DNA of 64,000 nt. Origin: Rhodospirillaceae bacterium (GTDB taxonomy: Bacteria > Pseudomonadota > Alphaproteobacteria > UBA6615). Shown in pieces: positions 1-48,332 of the stretch. The stretch's first letter is position 1, and every line of letters begins with the position of its first letter. The translations under genes and the position numbers were made by a program. The notes below the pieces were generated by a model. It was given only the letters and a program-made list of their open reading frames with translations, had not been told where the DNA came from and made no database searches. The stretch is taken from the NCBI GenBank assembly GCA_018702955.1, contig JABJEK010000038.1, positions 1 to 64,000 of the forward strand. The letters are read 5' to 3'.

Positions 1-279
1 CTGCAGCCCGCCGAGCACACCGCGAACCTTCACGATCTGGCCCCAGGCCTGGTTCCACTCGATCTCGTAGTTGCCGGTGGCAGCGAGACGCTTGTCGATC
101 TCGGGGATGTAATAGTCGATGAATTCCTTCACCCAAAGTGACTTGGGCGAATAACCATCGATTGCGGCGACCTTGATGGTCTCTGCGGCATTCGCCGCAC
201 CCGCATGCGCCATCGTCGCGACGATAGCACCGGCGCTGACGGCGCCGAGTTTTTTGAGGAATGACTTGGATTTGATCAT
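1..279 (-). CDS. TRAP transporter substrate-binding protein (DctP family), N-terminal part, truncated by window edge
   Basis: The reading frame opens at an ATG at 279 and runs off the left edge, giving 93 residues. It begins with a basic stretch and a hydrophobic Sec-type signal (about residues 1-31, Ala-rich, ending near ANAAE). The mature part has TIKVAAIDGYSPKSLWVKEF and a WNQAWGQIVKVRGVL segment typical of DctP-type periplasmic receptors for organic acids. It is divergent from the GntR gene at 481, with a paired operator between them, so that regulator probably controls this transporter. The permease genes, if in the same operon, lie outside the window. It differs clearly in sequence from the DctP pair at 7.6-10 kb, so it belongs to another TRAP system. 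The ligand cannot be told. Confidence 0.85.
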   Translation of the reverse strand, partial: MIKSKSFLKKLGAVSAGAIVATMAHAGAANAAETIKVAAIDGYSPKSLWVKEFIDYYIPEIDKRLAATGNYEIEWNQAWGQIVKVRGVLGGLQ

Positions 280-384
280 CGTGTTCTCCCAGGGCCTCGC
301 CCTATTCAAGATTGCTTATCTTTGTTTTTTTGGTACGCGCTTTTGTTAAACGGATAGAACCGATTTTCGGTGTCCGGAGTCAAT

Positions 385-427
385 AATATTCGAATATTTT
401 TCTTCCACTGAAATATTTTCGAATATA
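385..427. promoter_or_regulatory. Paired TTCGAA-centred operator between TRAP receptor gene and GntR gene
   Basis: A perfect 14-bp palindrome, AATATTCGAATATT, spans 385-398. A second, less perfect copy (TATTTTCGAATATA) covers 414-427. The two TTCGAA cores are centred at 391.5 and 420.5, so they are 29 bp apart. The pair lies in the 201-bp gap between the divergent TRAP receptor start (279) and the GntR start (481), which fits autoregulation plus control of the transporter. The same arrangement with the same spacing is found at 23046-23086. The identity of the bound regulator is inferred from adjacency only. Confidence 0.6.
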
Positions 428-480: not shown

Positions 481-1203
481 ATGATGGCCGTCAAGAAAAC
501 CAGCAAACGCGATAGCCGCGCAGGCGGACCGACCATCGCGACATCGGTCTATGACCAGCTGCGGGACGATATCATCAAGGGTGCCATCGAACCGGGACAC
601 CGCCTGGGAACGGATCAGCTGCGCGGTCGATACGATGTCGGTATCAGCCCGGTGCGTGAAGCGCTTAACCGGCTTTTAGCTGAAAAGCTCGTCTGCTTTG
701 AAGATCAGAAGGGGTTTCACGTCGCGGGTATAGGTGAGGAAGATCTCTACGATCTCATTCGCATGCGATGCTGGGCGGAGGAGACCGCCCTGCGCGAATC
801 GATGGCCAACGCGACGCCGGAATGGGAAGAGTCGATCGTGCTGGCTTATCACCGCCTGTCACGTACGCCCCGTTCGGCCCAATCCGAAAAGTTCGAGTTC
901 AATCCGGAATGGGAAGTGCTGCACCTTGTATTTCATACGGCATTTCTTGCGAACTGCGGCTCGCCTCGCCTGCTGGCACATTGCGAGCTGCTGGCCGACC
1001 AGTCGAAACGCTATCGCCAGCTCGCCGCGTCGATCAGCTTCCCCGCCCGGTCCGAGGGTGATGAACACAAGACCCTCATGGACAAAGCGCTCTCGGGCGA
1101 TGTGGAGGCCGCCGTCGAAGCCCACCACGCCCATTTGCGCAAGACCATGGAAATTATCATCCACTCCGGACTATCGCTTCCGGCCGGAAAAATCGCCGTC
1201 TAG
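481..1203 (+). CDS. GntR family transcriptional regulator (FCD-type ligand domain)
   Basis: About 240 residues: an N-terminal winged helix-turn-helix followed by an all-helical effector domain. The first includes SVYDQLRDDIIKGAIEPG and ISPVREALNRL, the classic GntR signature. The second has RMRCWAEETALRESM, a pattern like the FCD subfamily, which usually senses carboxylic acids. Starts at 445, 481 or 484 are possible. I prefer 481 because 445 would leave almost no leader after the operator, but none has a good ribosome site. Its divergent position to a TRAP receptor gene suggests control of organic-acid uptake. The effector is unknown. Confidence 0.88.
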   Translation: MMAVKKTSKRDSRAGGPTIATSVYDQLRDDIIKGAIEPGHRLGTDQLRGRYDVGISPVREALNRLLAEKLVCFEDQKGFHVAGIGEEDLYDLIRMRCWAEETALRESMANATPEWEESIVLAYHRLSRTPRSAQSEKFEFNPEWEVLHLVFHTAFLANCGSPRLLAHCELLADQSKRYRQLAASISFPARSEGDEHKTLMDKALSGDVEAAVEAHHAHLRKTMEIIIHSGLSLPAGKIAV

Positions 1204-5235: not shown

Positions 5236-6588
5236 CTAGTTTCCTCTGAAACTGATCCCGATCTGATGATTGAAGTTGATATCCGTACTCCAGCTGATCG
5301 GCTCGGTCGCCAATTCAGGGAATATCCAGACCATCGCCAGAACGAAGAGCATCAGTATCCAGTACGGGATTGAACCCGCAAAAATCTCGGATAACTGCAC
5401 CGTATTATCCGGCACAGCGCCCTTCACCGCATAGACCAACAACCCGACAGGTGGGGTCAGGAGACCGGCTTCAATCGCCAGAATACCCATGATCGCGAAG
5501 GCATATTCGTTGTAGCCGAAATTCTGTGCAATCGGCCAGAAGATGGGCACGGTCAGCAGGATGATCGAACCTGAATCCAACAGCGTCCCGAGGATCAGCC
5601 AGATCACGATCATGATGAAGATGGCAATATTCGGGTCGATGCCCGCACCGCCGACCGTGTCCTGGATCAGATTGACGATGCCACCGGTTGTCAGCAACCG
5701 GGCATACATCTGCGCCGTCAGCAGCAGGAACAGGATCGGTGCGATAACCTTACCGGAATCGATAATGGCCTCGCGAATGCCATCCCATTTGACGCCCTTG
5801 ATCAACGCCAGAATCAGCCCGAACAAGGCACCCAGCGCGGCCGCCTCGGATGGTGTGGCGAAACCGGCCCAGATGCTGCCGAGCACGGCAAAGATCAGGA
5901 AGATGACACCACCACCACTGATCATTTCCTGACCGGTGAGCTTCTCGTTGGAGAGATCGACGTTCGGGGCAACTTCGGGCTTCAGGATCGCCGTGCCCGA
6001 GCTGTAGAAGGCCATCAACAGTGCGAGGAAAATACCCGGCAGGATGCCCGCGAGGAACAGGAAGCCGATCGAGATCTCGGTCACAATGCCCCAGATGATC
6101 AGCAGCACACTCGGTGGGATCAACATGCCAAGGCACGCACTGCCCGCGACCGAACCCAGCGCGTATTTGCGGCTGTAGCCGGCGGTAATCATTTCCGGAT
6201 AGGCCAGACGGGAGAAAGCAGCGGCTGAAGCGAGGCTGGTTCCGGTCACGGCGGCGAAAATAGCGTTGCCCGCCACGGTCGCGACGGCAAGCCGGCCCGG
6301 AATGCGCTTCAACCCGAAATTCATCACCCGGTACAGATCGCCCGCAGAGCCAGATCGGCTGACGAACTCGCCCATCAAGACGAATAGCGGAATAACGGCG
6401 AATACAAAGTTTCGCAGTGCGAAGAATGATGTACTGCCGATCTGTCCCGAGGCCATCTCGTACGTGCCGAACATCAGCCATGTCCCGACAAGCGCGGTGA
6501 CACCCAAAGATATTCCGATGTGAACACCGACCACCACGGCGATGATCAGCAAGATCAGCATCAATATGACAGCTGTTGTCGGATCCAT
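5236..6588 (-). CDS. dctM: TRAP transporter large permease subunit (DctM)
   Basis: 450 residues, almost wholly hydrophobic, with the 12 or so membrane helices of the DctM/ion transporter superfamily. It moves the ligand across the inner membrane using the sodium or proton gradient. The start is the ATG at 6588 (MDPTTAVILML), preceded by AGGGGACG. An open frame continues upstream to 6774 but this extension is basic, Cys-rich and overlaps dctQ, so I reject it. The C-terminal part has TPPVGLLVYAVKG, a family-typical loop. dctQ lies 73 bp upstream on the same strand. Two binding-protein genes lie divergently at 7626 and 8909. Confidence 0.93.
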   Translation of the reverse strand: MDPTTAVILMLILLIIAVVVGVHIGISLGVTALVGTWLMFGTYEMASGQIGSTSFFALRNFVFAVIPLFVLMGEFVSRSGSAGDLYRVMNFGLKRIPGRLAVATVAGNAIFAAVTGTSLASAAAFSRLAYPEMITAGYSRKYALGSVAGSACLGMLIPPSVLLIIWGIVTEISIGFLFLAGILPGIFLALLMAFYSSGTAILKPEVAPNVDLSNEKLTGQEMISGGGVIFLIFAVLGSIWAGFATPSEAAALGALFGLILALIKGVKWDGIREAIIDSGKVIAPILFLLLTAQMYARLLTTGGIVNLIQDTVGGAGIDPNIAIFIMIVIWLILGTLLDSGSIILLTVPIFWPIAQNFGYNEYAFAIMGILAIEAGLLTPPVGLLVYAVKGAVPDNTVQLSEIFAGSIPYWILMLFVLAMVWIFPELATEPISWSTDINFNHQIGISFRGN

Positions 6589-6661
6589 TTTTTTCGTCCC
6601 CTTGTCCCGTTTGATCATTTGCCCGGTTACGTCCGGGCGGACGGGTTGTTGTTCTAAAAGC

Positions 6662-7198
6662 TTAGATTTGTGAGCCCGACACGCCTTCGACTGAGCCTTC
6701 TTCTTCATCCGTGATCGGCTCCGTGCCGAACACGAAATGCCAGAGCAAAACCGCATAGACGAACATCGACACAATCGCGAAAACGATAATCAGCGAACGC
6801 ACCGGGTAAATCGGCACCCGGATGGAGCCCTCGCCCTCGCGCTCATCGACCTCCCAGCCGATGATCATGTCTTCCCAGCCACCAACCGCGACCGACCAGA
6901 AGAACCAGATGCCGAGAATCGCAACGAAAATGTCGATCAGCCGGCGACCGATGTTGGGCAGGTTCTGATATACAACGGTCGTGCGCAGGTGAGCCCCGCG
7001 ATAGATCGTGTAGGGCAACTGCAGGAACAGAATCGACACCATCGAGTTGGCAACGATCTCAATGGTTCCATCAAACGGCGCGTTAAAGAACGTCCGGCCG
7101 GTGATATCCCACAGGATAAGAAATGCGAGGGCCATCGCCCAGAATGCTGCGACGGTACTGCAAACACGCGTAACGGTGTTTACGACGTTATCAACCAT
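6662..7198 (-). CDS. dctQ: TRAP transporter small permease subunit (DctQ)
   Basis: 178 residues with four hydrophobic membrane segments (roughly 15-40, 50-72, 90-112, 135-160), the standard DctQ plan. It partners DctM and stabilises the transporter. WGLGW-like conservation is low, as is usual in this subunit, so the call rests on topology, length and position directly before dctM. AGGGAG precedes the ATG. A strong hairpin stands immediately upstream of that ribosome site (7214-7233), which may influence expression. Confidence 0.88.
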   Translation of the reverse strand: MVDNVVNTVTRVCSTVAAFWAMALAFLILWDITGRTFFNAPFDGTIEIVANSMVSILFLQLPYTIYRGAHLRTTVVYQNLPNIGRRLIDIFVAILGIWFFWSVAVGGWEDMIIGWEVDEREGEGSIRVPIYPVRSLIIVFAIVSMFVYAVLLWHFVFGTEPITDEEEGSVEGVSGSQI

Positions 7199-7625
7199 GT
7201 ACTGGCTCCCTGTCCGCCTGTGAACTCAGGCGGTATTTTTGTCCGACTCGCAGGTCCTCCCAAACGAGCACTGCGCGAAGTTACCAGACTGAAACCCTAT
7301 GTAAACTCAACGTTCGCGCTTGAGCGCCTTTTTTTTGCCCCGCCGATGCGCGAATTCATCAAACAACCGTGATGGTTCCGCCACAATCCGACAGCAACGT
7401 TGAATCTGACGTCATGCGCTGTGCGTGCTGGCGTCTTTCGCAGTGCCGTCGGGAGGGCGGCACGGGTGCCTTTCGGCGGCGCAATGAAAGCGCGATAACC
7501 GCTAGCTTTTGTTACCGATTCCTGCTTTGTTGTGCTCCGACTTATGCGATTACCAGCACATTCCGTTACCGCTGAAACTCGCAGACGTTGTGCACAACAA
7601 ATAAATGTTTAAAGGGAGACGATCA
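7199..7625. other. Gene-free divergent region between dctQ and the first dctP
   Basis: This 427-bp gap separates the divergent transporter halves. Besides the hairpin at 7214-7233 it holds short open frames (for example 7369-7575) with no recognisable protein, ribosome site or conserved composition. It ends with the AAGGGAG ribosome site of the first dctP. I could not identify a convincing operator or sigma-factor match. It must contain promoters for both directions. Confidence 0.6.
7214..7240. promoter_or_regulatory. Leader hairpin before dctQ, with terminator-like form on the plus strand
   Basis: CCGCCTG (7214-7220) pairs perfectly with CAGGCGG (7227-7233) around a six-base loop. In the dctQ direction the stem sits just upstream of the AGGGAG ribosome site. 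In the other direction it is followed by TATTTTTG, which has the form of an intrinsic terminator. Whether it acts in the dctQ leader or ends a small plus-strand transcript cannot be settled here. Confidence 0.5.
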
Positions 7626-8711
7626 GTGAAAGCACGTAAGCATCTTGCAACTGTTGCTGCTGCTGGTGTGATGGCCGTTGCGGCAACCGCGACGACGACA
7701 TCCGCAGTAGCAGACAGCTTCACGCTGCGCATTGCCGCGGGCCATCCTTCGGCACCGCTCGCCAGTGTGAACCAACTCAACAAGACCTTCGTTCCGAACG
7801 TGACCAAGCGCGTCGCGGCGGAGACCGACCATAAGGTTCGGTTCATCGAGGGATACGGCGGCACGATCGCCAACCTCTTCGAGGTTCTGGAATCCACCCA
7901 GAAGGGTCTCGTCGACATCGGCGCGATGTGCTCGTGCTTCGAGCCGACGAAGTTGTTCGTCCACAACATGAACTACTTCAACCCGTTCATCTCGGGCGAT
8001 CCGAAGATCATGGGTCCGACCTCGCGTCAGATCCACAAGGAGTTCGACTACTTCTACAAGGTCTTCTCCGACAACTATAACCAGACCTATATCGCCAACG
8101 GTGCGTTCGACGATTACGGCCTGGGTACGAAGTTCCCCTGGACCAAGATGGAAGAGCTCAAGGGTGTGAAGATCGGTGCCGCTGGCCCGAACCTTCCCTG
8201 GCTCGACTATGCTGGTGCCGCGAAGGTTCAGACCAACCTGAACGAAGTCTACAACGCGCTGCAGTCCGGTGTGTTCTCGGGCGTCGTGATTTTCCCGGCG
8301 CCGTATTTCGGCTTCAAGTTTGGCGAAGTCGCGAAGTACTACACGACCATGGGCTGGGGTTCGGTTGTCGCCTACCCGGTGACCGTCAACAACGACACAT
8401 GGGCGAAGCTGCCTGATTCCGTGAAGAAGATCATCATGGAAGAGACCGACGTCTACAACGTGGCCGTTGAAGACGAAGGCGTTCGGAAATTCTCCTCCGC
8501 GCTTGCCAACCTCAAGAAGCAGGGCGTCACGGTTCGTGACCTCGGCGACGAAGAGCGTGGCAAGATGGCTCGTGTGATCGAGCCGTGGGTGAACCAGAAG
8601 GCCGAAGAGTATGAGGCCAAAGGTTTCCCGGGTAAGGCAACCTTCAAACGCCTGATGGCACTGGCAATCGAGAACGGCGCCAAGCCGGTTCACCAGTACA
8701 ACATCAAGTAA
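7626..8711 (+). CDS. dctP: TRAP transporter substrate-binding protein, copy 1
   Basis: 361 residues with a Sec signal peptide (about 1-30, basic start then Ala-rich core, cleavage near SAVADSF). The mature protein is a DctP-type periplasmic receptor; the conserved ligand-pocket region includes KGVKIGAAGPNLPWLDYAGA and NEVYNALQSGVF. The start is a GTG at 7626 with AAGGGAG eight bases upstream; the ATG at 7605 lacks one. It is closely similar along its full length to the next gene, and both carry the odd MCSCFEPTKLFVHN segment with a Cys-Ser-Cys. The receptor presumably delivers to DctQM encoded divergently. Ligand unknown. An intrinsic terminator follows. Confidence 0.92.
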   Translation: MKARKHLATVAAAGVMAVAATATTTSAVADSFTLRIAAGHPSAPLASVNQLNKTFVPNVTKRVAAETDHKVRFIEGYGGTIANLFEVLESTQKGLVDIGAMCSCFEPTKLFVHNMNYFNPFISGDPKIMGPTSRQIHKEFDYFYKVFSDNYNQTYIANGAFDDYGLGTKFPWTKMEELKGVKIGAAGPNLPWLDYAGAAKVQTNLNEVYNALQSGVFSGVVIFPAPYFGFKFGEVAKYYTTMGWGSVVAYPVTVNNDTWAKLPDSVKKIIMEETDVYNVAVEDEGVRKFSSALANLKKQGVTVRDLGDEERGKMARVIEPWVNQKAEEYEAKGFPGKATFKRLMALAIENGAKPVHQYNIK

Positions 8712-8732
8712 AATCGATTACATCGATTTGCG

Positions 8733-8765
8733 AAAGGGCGGCCTCCGGGTCGCCCTTTTTCTTTG
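8733..8765 (+). terminator. Intrinsic terminator after first dctP
   Basis: AAAGGGCG (8733-8740) pairs with CGCCCTTT (8751-8758), followed by TTTTTCTTTG. It lies 21 bases after the stop of the first receptor gene, so the second receptor probably has its own promoter or depends on readthrough. Confidence 0.85.
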
Positions 8766-8908
8766 TCGGCTAACACCACCTGCAAGTCCCTTCCCCTCAA
8801 GCCCAATTCGATCCACACTGACGGCATTGCGTATGAGCACGTTCCACTTGCGTTCCAGTATGTGCCCAACCGGGCTTCAATAACGGAAACGATCAGGGGG
8901 AAATCCCA

Positions 8909-9994
8909 ATGCAATTCTCATCTCAAATAGTCCGTACTGCCCTTTTCGCGGGCACAGTCACCTTCGGCATGGCCACTTTTCAGGCACCTTCCGTAGCAGA
9001 CAGCTTTACGATGCGGATCGCCGCCGGCCATCCGGCAGCGCCGCTGTCACAAGTCAATCAGCTGCAGAAAACATTCGTCCCGAACGTGACCAAGCGCGTC
9101 GCTGCCGAGACCGAGCACAAGATCAGATTCATCGAAGGGTATGGCGGGACCATCGCCAATCTGTTCGAAGTGCTGGAATCCACCCAGAAAGGCCTGGTTG
9201 ATTTCGGATCGATGTGTTCGTGCTTCGAGCCGACCAAGCTCTTTGTGCACAACATCAACTACTTTACGCCGTTCGTGTCAGGCGACCCGAAGATCATGGG
9301 ACCGGCGACCCGCCAGCTTCACGACGAATTCGACTATTTCTCGAAGACCTTCGATCGCTACAACCAGACATTCCTCGGCGGTGGTGCCGTCGATGATTAC
9401 GGGTTGGGCACCACCTTCGCATGGTCGAAAATGTCGGACCTGAAGGGCGTCAAGATCGGTGCCGCGGGTCCAAACCTGCCCTGGCTCGACTTCGCCGGCG
9501 CGGCAAAGGTCCAGACCAATCTGAATGAGGTCTATAACGCTCTGCAATCTGGCGTCTATGACGGCATCGTCATCTTCCCCGCTCCCTATTTCGGGTTCAA
9601 GTTCGGCGAAGTCGCCAAGTTCTACACGACCATGGGATGGGGCTCTGTTACGGCCTATCCGCTGGCCGTGAACAAGGACAGCTGGGCCAAACTGCCGGCG
9701 AATGTGAAAAAAATCATTCAGGAAGAAATTCCGGTTTATGAAGCCGCCATCGAGGAAGAAAGCACGATCAAATATGTGACGGCCCTCAAGAAGCTCAAGG
9801 AACAAGGGGTCACTGTGCAGGATCTCGATCCGGCCGTACGGCGGGAAATGGCGCAAGCCATCGAACCGTGGGTCAACCAGAAGGCACAGGAGTATGAAGA
9901 TGCTGGCGTGCCCGGTAAGGCCACGTTCCGCCGGCTGATCGAACTCGCAATCGCCAACGGCGCCAAGCCGGTCCACAAATACACGATCAACTAA
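8909..9994 (+). CDS. dctP: TRAP transporter substrate-binding protein, copy 2
   Basis: 361 residues, the same length as copy 1 and collinear with it from the signal-peptide junction (VADSFTMRIAAGHP) to the C-terminus (NGAKPVHKYTIN). Differences cluster in the C-terminal 100 residues and around residue 150. It has its own Sec signal. An AGGGGGAAATCCC ribosome site precedes the ATG. It is a tandem duplicate sharing one divergently encoded permease pair. The two copies may widen the ligand range. An intrinsic terminator follows its stop. Confidence 0.92.
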   Translation: MQFSSQIVRTALFAGTVTFGMATFQAPSVADSFTMRIAAGHPAAPLSQVNQLQKTFVPNVTKRVAAETEHKIRFIEGYGGTIANLFEVLESTQKGLVDFGSMCSCFEPTKLFVHNINYFTPFVSGDPKIMGPATRQLHDEFDYFSKTFDRYNQTFLGGGAVDDYGLGTTFAWSKMSDLKGVKIGAAGPNLPWLDFAGAAKVQTNLNEVYNALQSGVYDGIVIFPAPYFGFKFGEVAKFYTTMGWGSVTAYPLAVNKDSWAKLPANVKKIIQEEIPVYEAAIEEESTIKYVTALKKLKEQGVTVQDLDPAVRREMAQAIEPWVNQKAQEYEDAGVPGKATFRRLIELAIANGAKPVHKYTIN

Positions 9995-10017
9995 AAGTCG
10001 ATCTCATCGAAAACGGA

Positions 10018-10045
10018 AAGGGCGGCCCAAAGGCCGCCCTTCTCT
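10018..10045. terminator. Bidirectional terminator between second dctP and the HisD-like gene
   Basis: AGGGCGGCC (10019-10027) pairs with GGCCGCCCT (10032-10040) with a four-base loop. The plus-strand tail is TCTCTG; the minus-strand tail is TTTCCGTTTTC. It separates two convergent genes. Confidence 0.8.
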
Positions 10046-10064
10046 GTTCGGCTCGTCGCTGGCT

Positions 10065-11378
10065 CTACTCGGCAGCGTCAGTTGCCCCGATACCGATATT
10101 CCGGCCGGCGTAGCGGCGCAGGCGCAGATCGGCCTGTTCCTTGTGACCCCAGAAGCGCTCAACCTCGCACAGTCGCGAACAATAGTCGCCGACCAGCGCA
10201 CTCGCCTCTTCCGTGACTTGCTGATAGGTGCAGGTCTTCATGAACTTGCCGACCCACAGGCCGCCGGTGTAGCGAGCCGCACCCTTCGTCGGCAGCGTGT
10301 GGTTCGTGCCGATGACCTTGTCGCCATAGGCCACATTGGTCTCGGGCCCGATGAACAGCGCACCGAAGTTGGTCATGTTGTCGAGGAACCAGCGCGGGTC
10401 TTCGGTCAGGATCTCGACATGCTCATAGGCGAGACGGTCCGCCTCGATCCGCATCTCCTCGCGGTCGCCGCACAGGATGATCTGGCCGTAATCGCGCCAC
10501 GCCACGGACGCCACGTCCGCCGTCGGCAATATCTTCAACTGGCGCTCGATCTCCGCCGGAATGGCCTCGGCCAGTTCCCGCGACGTCGTGATCACGGCCG
10601 CCGGTGAGTTCGGGCCGTGTTCGGCCTGACCGAGCAGATCGACCACCACCATTTCGACGTCGGCGGTGTCGTCGGCAATCACGAGCACTTCCGTGGGGCC
10701 GGCAAACAGATCGATCCCCACCTTGCCGTAGAGCTGGCGCTTGGCCTCCGCAACATACGCATTGCCTGGTCCGACCAGCATGTCGCAGGGCGAGATCGTC
10801 TCGGTGCCGATGCCCATCGCCGCCACAGCCTGCACACCACCAAGACAGTAAATCTCATCTGCCCCGGCGAAATGCATCGCCGCGATCGTCGCCGCGTGCG
10901 GGCCACCTTCGTTCGGCGGCGTGCAGGCGATCACCCGCGGCACGCCGGCGACCTTGGCCGTCACGATCGACATATGGGCCGACGCGACCATCGGGTAGCG
11001 GCCGCCCGGCACGTAGCAACCAACGCTGTTCACGGGAATATTCTTGTGGCCCAGGGTCACGCCCGGAAGCGTTTCGACTTCGACATCCTTCATGGAATCA
11101 CGCTGTATCTGCGCGAAGTTGCGGACCTGGGTCTGCGCAAACTTGATGTCCTCAATCGTCTGCTCGGGCAGAGAATCGACGAGTTCCTTCACCTGCGCAT
11201 CGGACAGACGGAAACTGTCGGGCGTCCACTTGTCGAACTTCTCCGACAGCTCGCGCAGGGCCGCGTCGCCGCGGGATTTCACGTCGCCGAGAATCCCCTC
11301 AACAATCCCACGAACCTTGATATCGGCTTCGTCGGTCGCGTCGGCGTCCATCCCCTGCTTCAGGAACTCGATGGCCAT
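10065..11378 (-). CDS. Histidinol dehydrogenase family enzyme, probably catabolic (sulfopropanediol-dehydrogenase-like)
   Basis: 437 residues, the length of HisD. The HisD active site is fully kept: presumed zinc ligands Gln251 and His254 (GQAEHGPNS), Asp353 ([10 protein letters not shown]) and His412 (WGHKEQ), and the base pair Glu319-His320 ([11 protein letters not shown]). The enzyme should oxidise an alcohol in two NAD-dependent steps to an acid. No his genes are near, and the neighbours are a TRAP system and cyclase-type hydrolases. The distinctive [14 protein letters not shown] stretch after the Asp/His site reminds me of HpsN-type dihydroxypropanesulfonate dehydrogenases rather than true HisD, but I cannot verify this by alignment. 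The gene follows the cyclase gene at 11481 on the same strand, with a weak hairpin between. Confidence 0.85.
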
Positions 11379-23036: not shown

Positions 23037-23045
23037 AACTTCCTA

Positions 23046-23086
23046 TTTTCGAATTTTTGTTCAGATGACACAGATATTCGAAAATT
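23046..23086. promoter_or_regulatory. Paired TTCGAA-centred operator upstream of metallophosphoesterase
   Basis: Two TTCGAA cores, in TATTTTCGAATTTT and ATATTCGAAAATT, are centred at 23050.5 and 23079.5, again 29 bp apart. Read on the minus strand the pair closely matches the 385-427 pair, including shared TTCGAATAT in the first box. It lies about 120 bp before the ATG at 23203. The same regulator probably binds both places. Confidence 0.6.
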
Positions 23087-23202
23087 GTACAAATCACGGG
23101 AACAACTCACCGGCTGGCCGTGCATCACGACGCGTGCCCTAGCCGTGTTATGATCCAGTCAACGCCGCCGGTAACGTGCGGCTAGGGGAAAAGGAGACAC
23201 CC

Positions 23203-23964
23203 ATGAAATTTGTTCTTTATGCGGATATCCATGCGCAGATTCCGCAGATGGAAGCCGTTCTCGAAGCCGTCGACAAGGAAAATGCCGACAAGGAAATTCT
23301 GATCGGCGATCTGATCATGCTCGGCCCGCAACCCGCCGAGGTGGTTGATCACTTCATGAATGTCCGTCAGAATGTCGACATCCTGATCGGCAATCTGGAC
23401 ATGTGGGTGGTCGACAAGTTCTGGGAGACCAAGACGCCGAAGAACATCTATCACGAGTGGATGCTCGACATGGCCCGCCTCACCCGCGAGCGCATGACCC
23501 AGGAGCAGCTCGACTGGCTGAACAAGTTGCCGTTCGCGATGACCTACACCCCCGAGCATAACCATAATTTCCATGTGTTCCACGCGACACCGGACGAGAT
23601 CGGCGATGAAGACGCCCTTCCGCCACGCCTCACCGACGACGAGATGTGGGAAAAGATCGGCGACGTCGACGCGGACGTAATGTCCTTCGGCCATATTCAT
23701 GGTGGCTATGTCCGTCAGGTCCGCGACAAGACCCTCGTTTGCGCCGCCGCGGTCGGCATGAGCTGGGACGGCGATCCGCGCCCGTCCTATGCAACGGTCG
23801 AGTATCTCGGCGACGGCAAATGGGATTGTCAGACCAAGCGTGTCGATGGTGATTTCGAAGAGCAGGCGAAGCTCAACGAAAATTGCTGGATCCCCCATGG
23901 CGATCGTATCGCCAAGATGATCCGGACGGGCTACTTCTGGAACCCCGACCATATGCCTCACTAG
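23203..23964 (+). CDS. Metallophosphoesterase (calcineurin-like, YfcE/DevR-type)
   Basis: 253 residues with the dinuclear metal motifs in order: Asp8-x-His10 (YADIHAQ), Gly-Asp36 (LIGDLIMLG), Gly-Asn64-x-Asp66 (IGNLDMW, Leu where many have His), and GHIHGG near 175. The class hydrolyses phosphomonoesters or phosphodiesters in the cytoplasm. The absence of His in the third motif is common in the YfcE/DevR group. AAAAGGAGA precedes the ATG. Its promoter carries the same two-box operator as the GntR/TRAP region 22.7 kb upstream. The methyltransferase gene follows after 25 bases and is probably in the same operon. Confidence 0.9.
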   Translation: MKFVLYADIHAQIPQMEAVLEAVDKENADKEILIGDLIMLGPQPAEVVDHFMNVRQNVDILIGNLDMWVVDKFWETKTPKNIYHEWMLDMARLTRERMTQEQLDWLNKLPFAMTYTPEHNHNFHVFHATPDEIGDEDALPPRLTDDEMWEKIGDVDADVMSFGHIHGGYVRQVRDKTLVCAAAVGMSWDGDPRPSYATVEYLGDGKWDCQTKRVDGDFEEQAKLNENCWIPHGDRIAKMIRTGYFWNPDHMPH

Positions 23965-23989: not shown

Positions 23990-24721
23990 ATGACACACAC
24001 ACCTGACCCAACCCCTTGGGAGGCTCAGGCCAAGGCCTTGATCCGCCGTCGCTATGCGCAGCTAGCGACGGCGGACTCGTTTCACGCGGACGCGCGCGAC
24101 AAGGCACGCGCCGCCGGCGTTCCGCTGGCGTGGTTCGACGCCCTGCCGCCGCGCATTGCCGGTGTATTTTCCGGCTGCGGCTGGCCGGCCGGCACCCTGA
24201 AAAATTGGAACCACGCCATTGTGGTCGACCTGGGTTGCGGCGGCGGCCTCGACACGCGCTTTGCCGCAGAGCAATTACCCGCCGACAGCGATGTGATCGC
24301 CCTCGATCTCACGCCCGAGTTGCTGGCCCGTGTCCATGACACCGTCTCGGGCATCAACGGTGCGAATGTCCGGACACTCGCGGCTGACATGGAGCGTCTC
24401 CCGCTCGCGGATGGTGTCGTGGATGTCGTGATCGCCAACGCGTCGCTCAATCTCGCAACGGACAAGGCCGCGGCCTTCACGGAGATCGCGCGCATTCTCT
24501 GCCCCGGCGGCTGCCTGCACGCCGCTGATCTCATCCGCAGCGGGCCTTTGCCAGCCGAAATCCTGGCGGACCCCATGGCGATGGCCAGCTCGCTCGGCGG
24601 TGTTGTGGAAGAAGCGGAGTTTCGGGCGTTGCTGGCACGCGCGGGGTTTTCAGAAATCGAGTTCACCGGCCACCGGCCCTTCGGGCCGGTCTTCGCGGTC
24701 GATATCAGCGCGCGAAAATAG
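23990..24721 (+). CDS. SAM-dependent methyltransferase, ArsM-like but lacking an arsenic-binding cysteine
   Basis: 243 residues of the class I methyltransferase fold, SAM motif VVDLGCGGGLDTRFA (78-92). Its layout follows arsenite methyltransferase: SGCGWP (Cys63) corresponds to the GCGNP Cys of ArsM, and IANASLNLATDKAAAF corresponds to ISNCVINLSxDK, with Ala151 in place of the Cys. Without that thiol, arsenite methylation is unlikely. It may methylate another soft nucleophile or a small molecule. It is 25 bases downstream of the phosphoesterase gene. The convergent IclR stop lies 20 bases beyond its own stop. Confidence 0.85.
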   Translation: MTHTPDPTPWEAQAKALIRRRYAQLATADSFHADARDKARAAGVPLAWFDALPPRIAGVFSGCGWPAGTLKNWNHAIVVDLGCGGGLDTRFAAEQLPADSDVIALDLTPELLARVHDTVSGINGANVRTLAADMERLPLADGVVDVVIANASLNLATDKAAAFTEIARILCPGGCLHAADLIRSGPLPAEILADPMAMASSLGGVVEEAEFRALLARAGFSEIEFTGHRPFGPVFAVDISARK

Positions 24722-24741: not shown

Positions 24742-25512
24742 CTAGGTGTCCGCGCCCTGTTTCGCGACCTGAGCGACGATCTCGTTCGCGACATTCTGCA
24801 ACAAGACGCCAACGCGCTCGATCTTCGAATCATCGAGGCGCGCACGCGGGCCGCTCACCGCCAAGGCGCAGGCCGCACGCCCAAGAGGGTTGAGGACGGG
24901 TGCCGATACCGAGCGAATACCCGGTGAGCCCTCCTCATCATTGATCGAATAGCCGCGTTTCTTGATGTTCGTGAGGTCGCGCAGAAGGGATTCGACATCG
25001 GTAATCGTCTTGCCCGTATAGGCGCTCAAACGCGTATTCTTGTAGCTCGCGCGGACTTCATTGACCGGCCTGACCGACAGCAGCGCCTTGCCGAGGCTTG
25101 TCGCATGGGCATCGAAATAGGTGCCGATCTGGACGTCGGAGCGGTGCGCCCGCTCGGTGGAGACCCGGTCGGCAATAAACACCTGGATGCCTTCGAGGAA
25201 ACCAAGCGCGATCGTCTCGTCGACCTCGTGCGCCAGGGTCACAAGATACGGGTGCGCGTGATGGGTGATCCGCGCAACCATGTTCGACCGGTTTCCGAAC
25301 AGATGCGAGTTGTAACCGATCCAATAGCGGCGATCCTCGCCCTTGTAGGCATATCCCATGCCGCAGAGCACCTCGAGAAGCCGATGTGCGGTCGCCCGAT
25401 GCAGGCCCGTCGCCCGCGCCACGTCGGACACGGCCCGCCCCTTGGTGCTGTCACCCAGATACTCAAGAATTTGAAACCCGCGCTCGAGCGACTGGTTCTT
25501 GTAAGTGGCCAT
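24742..25512 (-). CDS. IclR family transcriptional regulator
   Basis: 256 residues: N-terminal helix-turn-helix (NQSLERGFQILEYLG; VSDVARATGLHRATAHRLLEVL) and C-terminal effector-binding domain (TYFDAHATSLGKALLS; GIRSVSAPVLNPLG). The ATG at 25512 is chosen because GGGGACG precedes it and homology begins there; the frame is open to 25545. Two Gfo/Idh/MocA dehydrogenase genes lie upstream on the same strand, so it may regulate sugar or polyol catabolism by them. A TGTCT-N9-AGACA inverted repeat at 25581-25599 is a candidate operator. Confidence 0.9.
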   Translation of the reverse strand: MATYKNQSLERGFQILEYLGDSTKGRAVSDVARATGLHRATAHRLLEVLCGMGYAYKGEDRRYWIGYNSHLFGNRSNMVARITHHAHPYLVTLAHEVDETIALGFLEGIQVFIADRVSTERAHRSDVQIGTYFDAHATSLGKALLSVRPVNEVRASYKNTRLSAYTGKTITDVESLLRDLTNIKKRGYSINDEEGSPGIRSVSAPVLNPLGRAACALAVSGPRARLDDSKIERVGVLLQNVANEIVAQVAKQGADT

Positions 25513-25580
25513 ACTTTCGTCCCCGTACCCCGGCCTGACAATCATGCGGCGGTTAGTTGTCGAATGTCAGATAACGAAGC

Positions 25581-46871: not shown

Positions 46872-48332
46872 ATGAAAATCGGTAAGACAGAATTGACGCG
46901 TCGTGACGCGCTCAAAACCGGCGCAGCCGCTGCGGCAGTTGGTGCTGCCAGCACGGGGATGGCCGGCAAAGCCTTCGCCGGCTCGGAAGAAAATGCCGTC
47001 ATCGCGGCTGCAAAGAAAGCTGTACCGGGCGGTCAGGATATTACTGGCATCATCTGGTCGAACTACCAGGTCGCCCTTTCCGGCCCGTCCAAGGAATTCG
47101 GTGACGCGACCGGGATCGACCTGAAGAAAATCCAGGACATCTCGACGTTCGAAATTCCGCAGCGTGCGATGGCCGAAGCGCTTTCGAAATCGCCCGAGTT
47201 CGATATCTTCCACGTTGACTCGAACATGATCCCGTCGCTGGCTTCTGCCGGCCTTCTGGAGCCGCTGGACCAGTATCTCGATGCCGCCGGCGTCAAGATC
47301 AACGCGGTCGGCAACTTCGGCGAGTTCATGACCTACAAGGGCAAGACCTACGGCGTTCCGACGGACGGCAACGTGCATGTCCAGTTCATCCGTAAGGACC
47401 TGTTCGAGGATCCCGACGAGCGTAAGGCCTTCGCCGACAAGCACGGCCGCGAGATGACCTGGCCGGAGACGTGGGAAGAAGAGCTTGAGCTCATGAACTT
47501 CTTCACCCGCCCGGAAGACAATCTCTGGGGTTCGGCGAACCTGCGTGATCGTGGTTCCTCCCTCGCTTGGTGGTACATGTACCTCTACAGCGCCGGCGGG
47601 TTCCCGTTCACCGAAGACCTCGAGCCGAACATCGACAACGACGCCGGTGAGTACGCCGTGCAGACGTACCTCAACGTCAAGTCCGCGTCACATCCCGAAG
47701 CTGCTGGTTGGGGTACCCCGCAGATGATCCCGCGGATCATCAACGGCAACGCCTTCTCCTGCCAGTATTGGGACGGCATCATTGCCCTGGCCGAGAACCC
47801 CGACAAGTCGAAGACCGCCGGTAAGTGGTCCTACGGCCCGGTTCCGGGTTCGAAGTTTAGCGGCAAGCTGATCAAGCGTTCGATCTCGACACCGATCGTG
47901 TCGATGCTGGTGAACCGCCACAGCCCGCGTAAAGAAGCCGCTGGGTATTTCGCGGCCTACATGGCAACGGCAGACAACAGCGCGCGGATCGTTGGTGACC
48001 GGGTGAACACATTCCACGATCCGTGGCATGTCGAACACTTCAAGGAAGGCTCACTGCCGGCGAAGACCTATACGCCGGGCGGCATGGCCGCGATCGAGCA
48101 AAATCTGCAGATCACGACCCCGCCGATCTACCTGACCGGCCTGCTCGAGTTCGAGACCGAACTCAAGCGGAACCTCTCGGAAGCCTATGCCGGTGACAAG
48201 ACGGCCAAGCAGGTCAACAAGGACACGACCGATGCCTGGGCCCGTTCGGTCCGCCGTATTGGCAAGCGTCGTCTGAAGGAAGAGTTCGCCACCTACAAGG
48301 CGCTGCTTCCGACCATCGACCTTCCGACCTGA
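46872..48332 (+). CDS. ABC transporter extracellular solute-binding protein (carbohydrate type, family 1), Tat signal
   Basis: 486 residues. The N-terminus has a Tat signal with twin arginines at 10-11 (TELTRRDALKTG), a hydrophobic Ala stretch and a cleavage site near KAFAG. The mature protein is of the maltose-binding/family 1 type, with a conserved NVHVQFIRKDLFEDP segment and a region of WxDGIIALAE. Its Tat export suggests folding before secretion. It is the first gene of a complete importer with two permeases and an ATPase. Ligand not predictable; sugar alcohols, glycerol phosphates or carbohydrates are likely. Confidence 0.92.
   Translation: MKIGKTELTRRDALKTGAAAAAVGAASTGMAGKAFAGSEENAVIAAAKKAVPGGQDITGIIWSNYQVALSGPSKEFGDATGIDLKKIQDISTFEIPQRAMAEALSKSPEFDIFHVDSNMIPSLASAGLLEPLDQYLDAAGVKINAVGNFGEFMTYKGKTYGVPTDGNVHVQFIRKDLFEDPDERKAFADKHGREMTWPETWEEELELMNFFTRPEDNLWGSANLRDRGSSLAWWYMYLYSAGGFPFTEDLEPNIDNDAGEYAVQTYLNVKSASHPEAAGWGTPQMIPRIINGNAFSCQYWDGIIALAENPDKSKTAGKWSYGPVPGSKFSGKLIKRSISTPIVSMLVNRHSPRKEAAGYFAAYMATADNSARIVGDRVNTFHDPWHVEHFKEGSLPAKTYTPGGMAAIEQNLQITTPPIYLTGLLEFETELKRNLSEAYAGDKTAKQVNKDTTDAWARSVRRIGKRRLKEEFATYKALLPTIDLPT

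Follow-up and report, generated by a model that had tools for sequence, protein, structure and literature searches.

Genes and paired boxes between dctP and gntR

The window, by which we mean the whole stretch of DNA analysed (64,000 nucleotides), opens at the first base of its contig (C122), so that the TRAP receptor gene found there is cut and only its start is present. A divergent gene for a GntR/FCD regulator follows, and the DNA between the two carries a pair of TTCGAA boxes together with likely promoter elements. Box positions at successive 29-bp steps are called rungs I to III below, of which II and III carry the boxes in the window.

1-279, minus strand: first part of dctP, the gene for a TRAP solute receptor, assigned by synteny and 97% identity to L068:8055-9155 (Pfam DctP)
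354-359, minus strand: likely TRAP -10 element, TTCTAT, 18 bp from the -35 element; ATAGAA/ATAAAA conserved across genera
378-383, minus strand: likely TRAP -35 element, TTGACT; kept in 15 genomes, in many of them as TTGACA
386-426: the putative operator as a whole, an inverted repeat with 17-nt arms (386-402 and 410-426), 88% complementary in a repeat search
389-394: box of rung II, TTCGAA, 5 bp upstream of the TRAP -35 element; identical in G002 and G006
418-423: box of rung III, TTCGAA, starting 29 bp from rung II and abutting the likely gntR -10 element
484-1203, plus strand: gntR, gene for a CsiR-like GntR/FCD regulator (Pfam GntR, 4.3e-16; FCD, 5.5e-15)

In G006, G011, G012 and other genomes the whole dctPQM operon is present and transcribed divergently from gntR. 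The regulator scores above the cut-off for both of its domains (GntR, 58.8 bits with a cut-off of 27; FCD, 56.3 bits with a cut-off of 24.3). Its nearest curated model is that of CsiR (NCBIfam NF008576), at 128 bits and short of the 218-bit cut-off; the csiD/lhgO glutarate neighbourhood is absent, and gntR is instead flanked by TRAP dctPQM and other catabolic genes. Ortholog alignment indicates that the true start of gntR is probably ATG 481 or 484 and not 445. Ahead of the DNA-binding domain lies an N-terminal stretch, RDSRAGGPTIAT (window 490-540), which is conserved in the window's own genus (g1) and largely so in genus g6. Polysaccharide-deacetylase-like and FAA-hydrolase-like genes occur near the gntR region in G006 (L068:3411-6070), and seemingly the same pair was recognised by sequence reading in the distant G375 (L092, divergent genes), a hint of a shared pathway. 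Elsewhere in the window (5236-11378), genes for another TRAP transporter, with two paralogous receptors, adjoin a gene of the histidinol-dehydrogenase family. Genes of this family can be sulfopropanediol dehydrogenases, and a sulfonate role for the second locus is possible.

As the first-pass annotation had described, a palindrome, AATATTCGAATATT (385-398), encloses the first TTCGAA box and a second such box lies 29 bp away in a divergent promoter (389-423 in all). The starts of the boxes are 29 bp apart, which leaves 23 bp between them. Single TTCGAA boxes are not enriched in the window (27 found, 21 expected); pairs with a gap of 17-29 number three, where shuffles predict 0.05. Two of the three are the sites treated here and the third (47148-47188) has a different spacing and falls inside a gene (46872-48332). 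We ran the genome-wide pattern search that had been proposed and found the exact TTCGAA-N23-TTCGAA three times in the whole 3.37-Mb genome, at the two reported sites and within the coding sequence of a GC-rich gene, apparently for tryptophanyl-tRNA synthetase; the many pairs in coding DNA that would have spoken against an operator were looked for genome-wide and not found. With any gap of 8-38 there are eight TTCGAA pairs in the genome, and both of the AT-rich intergenic ones have the N23 spacing. A genome scan allowing two mismatches was dropped as too unspecific (111 matches vs 30 for the reversed control).

Conservation and promoter register of the pair

Among 24 genomes of the family scanned, 11 have a gntR ortholog (at least 52% identity) and 13 do not. 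A 29-bp-spaced pair is present at the gntR promoter in all 11 of the former and there in none of the latter, comparative support for the earlier proposal that the GntR protein is the probable binder. Two members of the window's genus, G002 and G006, retain TTCGAA-N23-TTCGAA at this promoter, where genera g6, g7 and g9 have TTCCAA-N23-TTGGAA instead. Among the 24 genomes scanned, seven contain a single copy of this second form and G014 contains two, all of them at gntR (the second G014 copy is on contig C324, which carries a gntR fragment), and its reversed control gave no match in the same scan. G004, which is 79% complete and has no gntR ortholog, carries the phosphoesterase copy only, and in G001 the single pair encloses a GC-rich spacer and lies on a different contig from a gntR remnant. 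That remnant, in a genome of the same genus (L085, contig C110, about 8307-8525), is a 73-aa match to the gntR tail, with a stop; the site has neither a divergent TRAP operon nor an operator, but the remainder of the cluster, including the methionine-synthase-like gene downstream, is retained.

The letters of the two boxes change jointly, from CG to CC/GG, and the pair stays its own reverse complement, which argues that the main pair is a single inverted repeat. The boxes and spacing of the earlier description were right, but its two independent palindromes are better read as one such repeat; likewise the TTCGAA letters are present, but what is conserved is the fixed 29-bp step more than these letters. 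Judged across genera, this inverted repeat measures about 35 bp, and the palindromic TTCGAA box appears in it as the local variant of g1. Within three g1 genomes, 33 of the 35 box-to-box columns of the gntR operator are invariant; five g6 genomes have invariant columns at 12/12 box positions, 7/23 spacer positions and 5/50 positions of the right flank. That two AT-rich intergenic regions came to share short palindromes by chance can be dismissed: TTCGAA by itself is common, but each site is conserved in three to four genomes against diverged flanks, and in sister genera both boxes have changed together.

With the letters TTCGAA or TTCCAA/TTGGAA, the boxes do not match the T-GT-N-AC-A consensus of FCD operators, a dissimilarity already remarked on for TTCGAA and borne out here. 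This consensus is common in the FCD subfamily and not universal, with NanR and BioR as known exceptions. The recognition helix is identical between g1 and g6, although the boxes differ, which counts against binding by GntR. A D/Q versus T difference in helix 2 between the two genera was considered as the cause of the box change and set aside, the alignment to the FadR contact positions being ambiguous.

A generic sigma-70 promoter scan returned no site above threshold in either operator region, so the promoter elements were assigned from their conservation. In each of the 15 genomes examined, 5-6 bp separate rung II from the TRAP -35 element downstream of it, and rung I sits between the TRAP -35 and -10 elements. 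Rungs II and III are occupied in g1 and g6. In g7 and g9 the occupied rungs are I and II, with rung III degenerate, and I and II are also occupied in f104, another family with a similar dctP neighbour (TTCGAC and TTCGAT/ATCGAA). Because the boxes are AT-rich and adjoin -35 and -10 elements, they might be thought part of the core promoter or structural features such as UP elements or curved DNA. We regard this as very improbable, since the letters switch in both boxes together with symmetry and exact spacing kept, the occupied rungs differ between genera relative to the promoter, and in the scanned genomes the TTCCAA/TTGGAA pair is confined to gntR.

The same register bears on the direction of control. 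The position of rung I suits repression of the TRAP operon, and rung III, where it abuts the likely gntR -10 element in g1 and g6, suits autorepression. A GntR protein that represses itself and activates the TRAP operon from a site upstream of its -35 element is less likely but a serious alternative, given that in g1 and g6 the operator stops 5 bp short of the TRAP -35 element, on its upstream side, a position used by activators; against it, g7, g9 and f104 have one box between the TRAP -35 and -10 elements, which fits repression, and CsiR of E. coli and of P. putida are repressors (PMC6265302, PMC6667623).

A second pair before phosphoesterase-methyltransferase genes

The first-pass annotation had also placed the same pair, identically spaced, 22.7 kb away, and we recovered it at 23048-23082, at a distance of 22.66 kb, in front of the following genes.

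23048-23053: left box of the putative phosphoesterase operator, TTCGAA; kept in G002, G004 and G006
23077-23082: right box, TTCGAA, 29 bp from the left box
23085-23092: TTGTACAA, a palindrome of classical GntR type, its centre 9 bp from that of the right box
23203-23964, plus strand: calcineurin-like phosphoesterase gene (Pfam Metallophos_2, 3.4e-11)
23990-24721, plus strand: class I methyltransferase gene, nearest to arsenite methyltransferase models and below their cut-offs
24742-25545: IclR gene, adjoining the methyltransferase gene

This pair too forms an imperfect inverted repeat, with 16-nt arms (23045-23060 and 23070-23085) that are 88% complementary, and its inner part is unlike that of the gntR operator. 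Within the genus, the phosphoesterase gene was found in four genomes, and each of them keeps the pair, with 30 of 35 columns invariant as compared with 77 of 129 in the remaining intergenic DNA. The adjacent TTGTACAA is kept in three of these four genomes and the fourth has TTGTACAC. The suggestion that one regulator controls both the TRAP and the phosphoesterase genes is therefore likely to hold within the genus, where the copy is conserved in 4/4 genomes, but does not extend outside it.

The neighbourhood of the second pair raises another candidate, namely that a different regulator such as the IclR protein binds the boxes and gntR is merely one of its targets. IclR proteins can use long bipartite sites, and the iclR gene adjoins the phosphoesterase genes in g1 genomes and in G012. 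We nonetheless hold this to be unlikely. G012 has both IclR and the phosphoesterase genes without a pair before them, yet has one at its gntR, and homologs in other families retain the 29-bp step at gntR itself.

The 29-bp step in other families and the predicted operator

Upstream of CsiR-like homologs of 43-54% identity in three other families we found the 29-bp step with other cores, sometimes as three boxes. Four genomes of f104 have boxes of GTCGAA/ATCGAA type and the same TRAP neighbour, and upstream of a 43% homolog in f61 there are three copies of ATCGAT in 29-bp steps, the last of them at the start codon. In f171, group A (20 genomes, about 48% identity) has a central AATTTATANATTT flanked by TATA boxes, which in L099 lie exactly 29 bp on each side, and some members have a degenerate first box (TTACAYAAA); group B (10 genomes) has the cores GTAC, TATA and GTAC at 28 and 29 bp. 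A ring-cleavage-dioxygenase-like gene is divergent to gntR in several of the f171 members read (L099, L127-L155; many of the genomes are of 7-9 Mb). Some homologs carry TGTACA, and GTAC is the classical GntR core, suggesting that each box is the site of one GntR dimer. The homologs that share the step score 122-157 bits to the CsiR model (NF008576), which is their nearest curated model as well.

Among 61 homolog upstream regions, TCGA-TCGA at a spacing of 29 occurs in eight, which come from three clades, and the next-best spacing occurs in four. Spacing 29 alone is common to three of four clade representatives, with a chance of 0.0035 by block shuffles for a core chosen after seeing the data. 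A general autocorrelation peaks at or near 29 and less strongly at 31 and 27. An inverted 8-mer test also peaks near 29, though its value at 31 is the higher one. Both measures are noisy, as AT-rich palindromes slide. No clear 29-bp pair was seen upstream of the f174 homologs (40-47% identity), nor a convincing one upstream of several other homologs of 37-45% identity. In f174 (L102-L109), several genomes have, upstream of gntR, a pair of conserved elements that contain GTAC and are separated by about 56 bp, near twice 28.

From these comparisons we consider that the pair in all probability serves as operator for the CsiR-like GntR/FCD regulator encoded beside it, which would bind it cooperatively with one dimer per box and thereby control both its own gene and the TRAP operon. 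A single GntR dimer of known type (FadR) covers about 17-20 bp, so that an operator of about 35 bp would need two dimers or a tetramer. If one dimer sat on each box and the two were held together, binding would depend on a constant distance between the boxes of 29 bp, or about 2.75 helical turns. On 386-426 such a complex would cover the gntR core promoter, giving autorepression, and would sit just upstream of the TRAP -35 element; a ligand, probably the TRAP substrate or its product, would free it from the operator. In g1 only, the same operator before the phosphoesterase-methyltransferase genes would add these to the regulon. Whether a clade of CsiR-like GntR/FCD regulators reads DNA chiefly through a 29-bp ruler is an even call; on that reading the box letters (TCGA, TCCA/TGGA, TATA, GTAC) would drift, the step and the -35 register would stay fixed, and rewiring would consist in the occupied pair moving by one rung.

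Parts of this arrangement have counterparts in known systems. CsiR (GlaR), a GntR/FCD repressor of glutarate use in E. coli and P. putida (PMC6265302, PMC6667623), is the nearest curated model both to this GntR and to the homologs with the 29-bp step, and in P. putida it gives two protected regions and four complexes (PMC6667623). However, the scores here are below cut-off, the targets are others, and the E. coli boxes, TTGTN5TTTT and ATGTN5TTTT (PMC6265302), are 19 bp apart instead of 29, their sites in E. coli K-12 starting at L156:2390 and 2409 by sequence reading. BusR, a tetrameric GntR-type repressor with a bipartite motif separated by 22 bp (PMC8517857), likewise uses a fixed spacing of two short motifs as a ruler, but it has RCK_C domains and a coiled-coil ruler, is not of FCD type and has a 22-bp gap. 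The GntR/FCD repressor NanR, whose (GGTATA)3 operator consists of three close repeats bound cooperatively, is comparable as a box array bound by cooperating dimers, which an N-terminal extension links on DNA when adjacent (PMC8012715); unlike the present boxes, its repeats are close-packed and not 29 bp apart. A further parallel in layout is found in the FadR-type GntR divergons, for which a survey describes paired sites at a constant distance in the middle of the shared divergent regulator-operon region, read as cooperative control (PMC4494728). Such a constant distance, of 29 bp, is found here in 11/11 family genomes and four f104 genomes. That survey aligned TnGT-N-ACnA palindromes, in contrast to the boxes here; TTCGAA and TTGGAA boxes are absent from its main text, and no 29-bp ladder was seen in the sections consulted (PMC4494728).

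No paper on a GntR protein with TTCGAA was found, nor a 29-bp ladder with drifting boxes in the literature searched, which is no proof of its being undescribed. What the comparison adds is support for the regulator as owner of the site, the inverted-repeat reading and a fixed 29-bp ladder in a clade of regulators resembling CsiR. The operator, and hence the regulon, of an uncharacterised alphaproteobacterial GntR group is predicted from spacing and not from letters, and ordinary motif searches would miss operators defined in this way. Across these genomes the letters of the boxes and the rungs in use vary naturally and the ruler is constant, which also gives a means of testing how GntR proteins with near-identical recognition helices shift their specificity.
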